Source of the DNA: an uncultured Acetatifactor sp.
Lineage (GTDB): Bacteria; Bacillota; Clostridia; Lachnospirales; Lachnospiraceae
Reading direction: 5' to 3'
Assembly: GCA_947629645.1 (NCBI GenBank)
Contig: CANREV010000006.1
Span: 38,853-102,852 of the forward strand
DNA: 64,000 nt
Shown here: in pieces, positions 13,201 to 15,379 of the stretch
Numbering within the stretch: the stretch's first letter is position 1
How the letters are laid out: each line of letters begins with the position of its first letter
Position numbers and translations under genes: made by a program
The notes under the pieces: model-generated
Seen by the model: only the letters and a program-made list of their open reading frames with translations
Told to the model about the DNA's origin: nothing
The model's database searches: none

Positions 13201-13674
13201 GTGAAAATGGCACAGCAAACGAGGCGCTCCATCAACGAGCTGCTGGTAAATCTATTTAATCATGTGATGGATCTGGAGGGAAAAGCGGTCATCACAGAGC
13301 AGTTTCGGGATATTACCAACAATGACATGCATATCATTGAGGCGATCGGGGTTGAGGAACCCAGAAATATGTCGGCCATTGCGCACAAGATGGCGGTTAC
13401 GGTCAGTACACTGACTACGAATATGAACGGCCTGGAGAAAAAAGGCTATATCCGCCGCGAGCGCAGTCAGGAAGACAAGCGCGTAGTTTATGTGATCCTC
13501 ACCGAAAAAGGGAAAAAAGCTTTTTACCACCATCGAGATTTCCACAAAAAGATGATCAAAGCTATCATAAAGAATCTGAGTGAGGAGGAGATGGAGCTGT
13601 TGTATCGCTGCCTTCAGAATCTGAATCGCTTCTTTGAGTCGGAAAGCAAAGACAAAGAGGAAGAACGTGTCTAA
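13201..13674 (+). CDS. MarR-family regulator, FabT-like
   Basis: MarR winged helix (MSAIAHKMAVTVSTLTTNMNGLEKKGYIRRERSQEDKRVVYVILTEKG); last gene of the fab operon. GTG 13201 or ATG 13207 start. Confidence 0.85.
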   Translation: MKMAQQTRRSINELLVNLFNHVMDLEGKAVITEQFRDITNNDMHIIEAIGVEEPRNMSAIAHKMAVTVSTLTTNMNGLEKKGYIRRERSQEDKRVVYVILTEKGKKAFYHHRDFHKKMIKAIIKNLSEEEMELLYRCLQNLNRFFESESKDKEEERV

Positions 13675-13683
13675 GTGAGGATA

Positions 13684-13806
13684 GTGTGAAAAATCACACT
13701 GATGTGCTGATTTTTCACACGGGAGTTTGTGCCGGAGCGTCACAAACTCCCCTGATGGCAGACGCGAATTTGAGATTCGCGTCGCCCCGTTGCGAGAACG
13801 CTCCGG
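13684..13806 (+). other. Chain of three perfect inverted repeats upstream of cls with potential loop-to-downstream pairing
   Basis: GTGTGAAAAATCA/TGATTTTTCACAC (13684-13696/13708-13720); GGGAGTTTGTG/CACAAACTCCC (13721-13731/13741-13751); GACGCGAAT/ATTCGCGTC (13761-13769/13775-13783); loop CCGGAGCGT (13732-13740) complementary to ACGCTCCGG (13798-13806). Confidence 0.8.
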
Positions 13807-13819
13807 AATTGAGATTAGT

Positions 13820-15379
13820 ATGAGTACGAATGCAAAAGGCAATAATCGGTTTGGAAATATAAAGACTATGATCTATGGCAGGACAGCGGTGATCATGCTG
13901 GGCTTTTTGGCCCAGCTGGTCTTGCTGATAGTGGCTTTTTACTGGCTGCGGGATTATAGTTATTTTTTTTATCTCGCCTTTCTGATTATCAGCGGCGTGG
14001 CCGTGATTCATATCTTCAACGCCAGAAGCAATCCCGACATGAAGCTGGCGTGGATGTTTCCCATTGCCATTTTCCCGGTCTTTGGCGCTATTTTCTATAC
14101 TGCTATTGTCACGCAGCCGGGGTCGAAGGTTTTGTACGGACGGCTGCAGAAAATAGCTCAGAATACGAAAGACTATGTAAAGCCCAGGGCAGAGTCGCGG
14201 GAAAAGCTCTGGCAGGAAAATCACCATATGGGGCAGCTGGCGCACTATCTGGAACAGTATGACAACAGTCCGGTTTACGAAAACACCCGGGTGGAATATT
14301 ACCGGTTGGGGGATGAGCAGTTTCCGGCCATGATCGAAGAGCTTAAAAAGGCTGAAAAGTTTATCTTTATGGAGTTTTTTATCGTCAGCAACGGAAAGAT
14401 GCTGGAAACGATTTTGGAGGTCTTGCGGGAAAAGGCGAAGCAGGGAGTGGAAGTGCGGTTCCTTTACGATGGCACCAACGTGCTGTGGAATCTGCCCAGT
14501 TTTTTCCCGAAGCTTATGGAGGAAGAAGGCATCCGGTGCAGGATGTTTTCTCCTATTAAGCCTGTTTTCTCTCCTCATTACAACAACCGCGACCATCGCA
14601 AGATCCTTGTGGTGGACGGCAGGGTGGCGTTCACCGGCGGTATCAATATTGCGGACGAATATATCAATCAGAAGGTGAGATTCGGCCACTGGAAAGATGT
14701 GGGCCTGAAACTGACGGGAGATGCGGTGGAACGCATGACTTTCATGTTTTTAGAGCTTTGGGCGGAGTCGGAAAAACAGACGGAAGATTACGGAAAGTAT
14801 GTTTGTCCTGCGGATGCATCCCAGCCTGGCGATGGCTATGTGATCCCCTACAGCGTCTGTCCCTTGGGACCGGAGCGGGTAGGGGAGAGAATCTATCTGG
14901 ATATTATTAATACGGCGCACACCTATGTGCATATTATGACGCCCTACCTGATCCTGGACCACCAGATGATGATGGCGCTGTGCTTTGCCGCAAAAAGAGG
15001 GGTTGAGGTGAAGATCATTATGCCTCACATTCCTGATAAAAAGTATGCGTTTCTGCTGGCAAAGACTTACTATAACGAGCTGCTTGAAGCCGGGGTGAAG
15101 ATTTATGAGTACAAGCCTGGCTTCGTCCACGCGAAACTGTTCGTGGCGGACGATGTGAAAGCGGTGGTGGGAACAGTGAATCTGGATTACCGAAGCCTTT
15201 ACCATCATTTTGAGTGCGGTGCGCTGCTCTACCGTAATTCCCAGATCAAAGCGATGGAGGAGGACGTGCAGGAAACGCTGGGCAAATGTATTGAAATGTC
15301 GGTGGAGGATTATAAGAAGTTAAAGCTCAGAGAGAGATTTCTGGGTATGATAATGAGAGTTGTGGCACCTCTGATGTAG
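13820..15379 (+). CDS. cls: Cardiolipin synthase (two HKD/PLD domains)
   Basis: HYNNRDHRKILVVDGRVAFTGGINIADEY and VHAKLFVADDVKAVVGTVNLDYRSLYHHFE; start at MSTNAKG (13820). Confidence 0.92.
   Translation: MSTNAKGNNRFGNIKTMIYGRTAVIMLGFLAQLVLLIVAFYWLRDYSYFFYLAFLIISGVAVIHIFNARSNPDMKLAWMFPIAIFPVFGAIFYTAIVTQPGSKVLYGRLQKIAQNTKDYVKPRAESREKLWQENHHMGQLAHYLEQYDNSPVYENTRVEYYRLGDEQFPAMIEELKKAEKFIFMEFFIVSNGKMLETILEVLREKAKQGVEVRFLYDGTNVLWNLPSFFPKLMEEEGIRCRMFSPIKPVFSPHYNNRDHRKILVVDGRVAFTGGINIADEYINQKVRFGHWKDVGLKLTGDAVERMTFMFLELWAESEKQTEDYGKYVCPADASQPGDGYVIPYSVCPLGPERVGERIYLDIINTAHTYVHIMTPYLILDHQMMMALCFAAKRGVEVKIIMPHIPDKKYAFLLAKTYYNELLEAGVKIYEYKPGFVHAKLFVADDVKAVVGTVNLDYRSLYHHFECGALLYRNSQIKAMEEDVQETLGKCIEMSVEDYKKLKLRERFLGMIMRVVAPLM

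Follow-up and report, generated by a model that had tools for sequence, protein, structure and literature searches.

A dispersed, pseudoknotted RNA element at the ribosome binding sites of unrelated genes in Lachnospirales

The described repeats nearest in kind to the element reported here are BOX, RUP and SPRITE of Streptococcus pneumoniae, which share with it a small size, non-coding nature, dispersal, insertion into one another, transcription as structured RNA, and neighbour genes without a functional theme (PMC3049150). All three end in terminal inverted repeats, BOX and RUP are flanked by target duplications as well, and spacers between convergent genes carry a surplus of them (PMC3049150), whereas our element has no terminal inverted repeats, occurs in one orientation only and sits in the gap between a Shine-Dalgarno (SD) sequence and a start codon, i.e., a placement opposite to the convergent-gene bias. 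The REP/BIME repeats with their RAYT (Y1) transposases are likewise hairpin-rich and extragenic, but several genomes bearing our element have no Y1 genes, and the element has a covarying pseudoknot and a replacement SD. In Clostridioides difficile, a group I intron with a c-di-GMP riboswitch lies at a start codon, is self-splicing and has its ribosome binding site (RBS) made by splicing. It resembles our element as a mobile-type RNA at a translation start, but the latter is about 130 nt long, has no Rfam intron match and brings its own SD. The YPAL and ERIC repeats (review PMC2229807) are intergenic, approximately 130-170 bp long and structured as RNA, and their filled and empty sites can be compared in the same way, but they have no known preference for the SD-start gap and carry no SD; the text of that review mentions neither Shine-Dalgarno nor start codon. 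The H-type pseudoknot riboswitches for preQ1 and SAM/SAH (e.g., PMC9410914, PMC7367207) also pair a hairpin loop with an SD-adjacent strand, but each controls a single pathway and is passed on together with its gene, unlike our element, which precedes unrelated genes and spreads within a genome.

The copy analysed lies in the fabT-cls gap of an uncultured Acetatifactor sp., and positions refer to the window, i.e., the whole 64,000-nucleotide stretch of DNA that was analysed; all features are on the forward strand. A sequence-only reading of this gap had reported three serial stems (13, 11 and 9 bp) and, over 9 bp, a pairing between a loop and a downstream strand, all of which were recovered by an inverted-repeat search. 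The fabT stop codon TAA (13672-13674) is directly followed by the SD-like flank GTGAGGATA (13675-13683), which we interpret, from its sequence, the SD-tetramer counts and the empty sites described below, as a putative remnant of the native RBS. The element, recognized through the searches for further copies, extends from hairpin A through its own SD (13684-13813). Hairpin A (13684-13720) has a 13-bp stem (13684-13696/13708-13720, 100% match), whose lower part covaries among copies (GTGTG/CACAC, GATTG/CAATC, GTATG/CATAC, GGGGG/CCCCC), and is missing from older copies. The perfect 11-bp stem of hairpin C (13721-13751; arms 13721-13731/13741-13751) is enclosed in a 17-nt inverted pair of 88% match (13718-13734/13738-13754), and its loop forms pseudoknot arm X (CCGGAGCGT, 13732-13740). 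Hairpin D (13757-13786) has a 9-nt stem (13761-13769/13775-13783, 100% match) extended by GGC (13757-13759) and GCC (13784-13786). Arm X is matched over 9 nt at 100% by arm Y (ACGCTCCGG, 13798-13806), which can alternatively pair with arm Z (CCGTTGCG, 13787-13794; CCG/CGG, GCG/CGC), recognized by folding and covariation. The element's own SD (13810-13813), GGAG in the family and TGAG in this copy, stands 6 nt ahead of the ATG (13820-13822) of the cls-type gene (13820-15379). The predicted folding energy of 13676-13830 (155 nt) is -67.4 kcal/mol, compared with -40.3 +/- 3.8 in dinucleotide shuffles (z -7.1; 0/200 shuffles as stable). The local fold GTGTGA-AAAA-TCACAC, proposed as an alternative structure, exists in the window copy and some others, but is impossible in the common GTGTGAAAAATAAGC... 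variants.

The block proved to be a dispersed repeat with 20 copies in its own genome by covariance model. With a 201-nt query, 17 matches were obtained in this genome, of which six cover most of the element with 82-100% identity, and BLAST found element matches in 16 of 60 relatives. The covariance model detected the element in 8 of 146 genomes of an even sample of the order, belonging to two families. Among 300 genomes sampled from the phylum, the own genome alone had it; in both searches the filters were tighter, at the cost of weak matches. In the order sample there were 29 near-identical copies in genome G089, 17 copies in G178 and 11 in G043. A pattern scan of named genomes yielded at least 117 stretches in Lachnospirales-type records, with the labels among the listed matches being mainly Acetatifactor, Roseburia, Eisenbergiella, other Lachnospiraceae and broader Clostridia names. 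All copies were collected by sequence or model, so that very divergent relatives may be missing from the set. We describe the element as confined to some Lachnospirales; this repeat of about 130 bases, apparently undescribed, has spread across genomes of this order in the gut. No copy was found in viral contigs (exact pattern) or plasmids, and no autonomous version with an internal gene among the copies examined. The sole match in a phage collection (L283) is MT838414.1, a 5.3-kb unverified 'Bacteriophage sp.' record from human faeces, whose long ORFs resemble, judged by eye, an MBOAT acyltransferase and the Tex protein and which is probably bacterial chromosomal DNA; its copy has a distinct compensated pseudoknot and lies ahead of an ATG. 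The own genome also contains deletion derivatives, two of which (L020, L024) lack most of the element but still have its terminal GGAATGGAG ahead of a start codon, while a third (L017) retains chiefly hairpin A.

Counting as a start any codon 2-13 nt downstream that opens an ORF of 40 codons or more, or an ORF continuing past the locus boundary, 181 of 189 distinct copies from a profile search end a few bases before a same-strand start codon of unrelated genes, and the spacing from GGAG to the start is exactly 6 nt in 142/189 copies and 7 nt in 21. At random positions in the pattern-selected loci, such a start occurs 4-8 nt downstream in 6.7%. Nearly all pattern-scan copies end in CGCTCCGGAATGGAG, with about 6 nt separating this end from the ATG of differing genes, and the scan pattern contains no start-codon requirement. 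The copies are oriented in sense only, an SD-like tetramer is present in the 5' flank of 95/109 hairpin-A copies against a background of 13.6%, and, among the 171 copies whose flank is long enough, 134 have the end of a co-directional gene no more than 300 nt away (median 43.5 nt), a pattern matched by the window copy between fabT and cls. No functional theme was detected among the downstream genes, as 140 proteins match 173 Pfam families, the commonest of which, ABC_tran, occurs in 8.

Empty sites show where the element lies relative to the native SD. In G043, a congener of G089, the orthologues of element-bearing valS, thrS and two further genes (L249/L271, L261/L263) lack the element; at valS, G043 reads CAGGAGGAGATTATG and G089 reads AAGGAGGAGTAA-element-GGAGGATAATATG, and the other loci show the same filled and empty arrangement, in a comparison made between species, so that the element ends are known only to a few bases. 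The native SD therefore remains upstream and a second SD is brought by the element. The element is also absent from the fabT-cls gap of relatives with that gene pair. Furthermore, the 5' flank of 27/90 scored copies ends in AATGGAG, the usual tail of a further copy, and tandem copies occur, and therefore insertion also takes place at the RBS of other elements. A 4-nt match between the sequence before the element and that after GGAG, a candidate target-site duplication, exceeds shuffles, but the signal weakens to p = 0.05 when shuffled within genomes. Copies that are nearly identical and dispersed, together with the corresponding empty sites, agree with the earlier suspicion of a mobile element, one that has moved, and point to active transposition. 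Tandem or nested copies, sometimes of mixed subfamilies, each at the RBS end of another copy, were seen at L141, L090, L129 and L049. The element copies ahead of valS and thrS in G089 (L257, L260) lie downstream of T-box-like leaders and terminators, giving two stacked RNA leaders per gene.

The long-range pairing, initially judged improbable by chance from one copy, does exceed chance because it covaries across copies, and it is a conserved pseudoknot adjoining the RBS. For hairpins C and D together with the pseudoknot, 92.1% of alignment cells are paired, double changes occur in 17/27 pairs, and the covariation score is 0.323 compared with 0.131 in shuffles and at most 0.092 in slid versions. 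In an alignment built by covariance model without fitting the pseudoknot, 95.6% of its cells are paired and 6/9 pairs show double changes, with no shuffle equalling the score. Independently of any alignment, matched loop-arm duplexes are on average 3.2 kcal/mol stronger than duplexes with permuted partners (approximately 7 SD). The sequence has even been exchanged wholesale with complementarity kept, as in TCTGAGCGA/TCGCTCAGA (L075), GCAGACG/CGTCTGC (L038) and CGCAGGCG/CGCCTGCG (L283), and on this comparative evidence we regard the pseudoknot as real. With a covarying pseudoknot adjacent to its SD, the element has the hallmark of a conserved pseudoknotted 5'-UTR RNA. Hairpin E (13787-13794 with 13799-13806) competes for arm Y, making the two pairings, X-Y and Z-Y, mutually exclusive; its covariation is weaker than that of the pseudoknot yet supported (87.1% paired, score 0.200 vs 0.147). 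One subfamily (L129, L049, L051) has a much longer hairpin E (TGTCA-TC-GCAG...CTGC-TC-TGACA) with the TC/TC internal loop kept.

We consider it likely that the element is a mobile structured RNA that replaces the RBS and, through its pseudoknot, keeps the new SD available for use. We infer a target rule under which insertion would always occur in sense between the native SD and start codon of a gene, leaving the native SD upstream, facing the NTG at the 5' end of the element, and placing the terminal AATGGAG as a new SD 6 nt ahead of the original start codon. Because the element supplies an SD at the right spacing, the gene would stay translatable and the insertion would be tolerated even at aminoacyl-tRNA synthetase genes; at valS or thrS, insertion without a supplied SD would probably be lethal. 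In the mRNA, hairpins A, C and D would form and the loop of C would pair with the segment immediately 5' of the new SD. Arm Y adjoins this SD and contains CUCC in most copies, which could mask GGAG, and RNAalifold also lets Y and the SD pair (CUC/GAG). The masking would be prevented whenever Y is paired with X or Z, and we think that either the pseudoknot or hairpin E may keep the SD-adjacent segment occupied and the new SD usable, the element acting as an RBS cassette and insulator that possibly tunes expression. An effect on translation is plausible. In folding estimates, mean SD accessibility rises from 0.30 without the pseudoknot to 0.50 with the pseudoknot imposed, and the net pseudoknot energy, with no loop penalty counted, is favourable in 98% of copies. 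For the window copy, with its SD decayed to TGAG, no accessibility gain from the pseudoknot is predicted. The subfamilies L038, L050 and L283 have a Y without the masking CUCC; SD protection therefore cannot be the sole role of the pseudoknot, and universal masking by CUCC is weakened as an explanation.

The strongest competitor, to which we give somewhat less than an even chance, is a parasitic repeat with no host role, which would need its structure in order to move, either as RNA or as single-stranded DNA. The RBS position would then reflect a target motif such as AGGAGG together with the purging of harmful insertions, and the carried SD would render insertion harmless. The burst of near-identical copies in G089, the nested and tandem copies and the lack of a theme among downstream genes all agree with such a parasite. 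What argues against it are the copies without hairpin A, which are presumably immobile and still keep the pseudoknot, with 0.32 broken pairs per substitution vs 0.67 expected at random. This suggests selection on the RNA after loss of mobility, a signal that changes inherited within subfamilies can mimic.

A true cis-regulatory switch is rather unlikely as an alternative to the protected RBS cassette. A signal, or else translation of the upstream frame, would decide between its X-Y and Z-Y states, free Y (CUCC) would mask the SD (GGAG), and the copies would constitute a regulon spread by transposition. We note that two mutually exclusive pairings of Y that both covary are what a switch would look like, and the predicted pairing of Y with the SD is also in its favour, but the downstream genes have no common function, the masking sequence is absent in some subfamilies, and Y is paired in both states. 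On the folding predictions we favour an insulator over a signal-driven switch. The switch specific to cls that had been proposed is not supported, given the placement of the element before over 100 unrelated genes, and the same lack of a theme speaks against a single-ligand riboswitch. A known cis-regulatory RNA was also rejected, since searches with Rfam covariance models at E <= 5 gave no match save a chance snoRNA in fabT and the downstream genes are functionally unrelated.

Movement by a Y1 transposase, as a REP/BIME-like or other IS200/IS605-type palindromic element, is improbable. The hairpin-rich structure, the missing terminal inverted repeats and the orientation fixed relative to the target motif would suit it, and Y1 genes occur in 10/18 genomes tested, but none was found in G178 (complete, 17 copies), G013, G162, G035 and G033, and this pattern of presence and absence excludes Y1 as the common mobiliser. 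The REP/BIME membership raised by the sequence-only reading fails, besides these missing Y1/RAYT-type genes, on the single orientation and the constant RBS position, since the 181 of 189 copies ending at a same-strand start codon contradict RBS-independent extragenic placement. A reverse transcriptase is not the common mobiliser either, being missing from G000, G178, G023 and G043, and no mobiliser gene was found, as each of the two candidates is lacking in some element-rich genomes. On the features tested, a MITE was rejected because no inverted pair joins the ends (5' GTGTGAAAAATC, 3' CTCCGGAATGGAG) and terminal inverted repeats are missing. The GUGYG-like 5' end recalls a group II intron, but other copies start with GATTG, GTATG or ATGTG, there is no Rfam match, and no consistent reverse-transcriptase partner was found, so that this reading too was rejected on the features tested. 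No tested family fits, and searches of Rfam and of open-access full text gave no description of such an element, although one in a subscription journal is possible. On balance, we lean towards a new class of mobile element that targets the SD-start gap, is tolerated through a pseudoknot-protected replacement SD, and converts the RBS of arbitrary, even essential, genes into a uniform, possibly switchable leader.

Small repeats of bacteria have mostly been seen as passengers in spacers. This one occupies the few bases at which a gene is most sensitive, where one folded RNA module replaces the RBS, at a scale of dozens of genes per genome. It raises the questions of how such an element locates the SD-start gap and whether it rewires the translation of whole gene sets in gut Lachnospirales.

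It is very improbable that the open frame GTG AAA AAT ... TGA (13686-13823) of the window copy is a conserved leader ORF coupled to its gene by the ATGA overlap with the cls ATG, an overlap seen in 9 copies in all, even with NTG AAA AAT following an SD-like sequence in most hairpin-A copies, because the frames differ between copies (59 terminate early, 23 continue into the gene in frame, 15 reach a stop within the gene in another frame and 9 end just before it) and are broken by insertions and 1-nt length differences, whereas the helices are kept by compensatory change. The element is also relevant to genome annotation, since it contains upstream starts and small ORFs that are spurious. The cls frame (13727-15379) contains an upstream TTG within the element, from which a gene caller could add a false 31-residue N-terminal extension of element sequence to cls.
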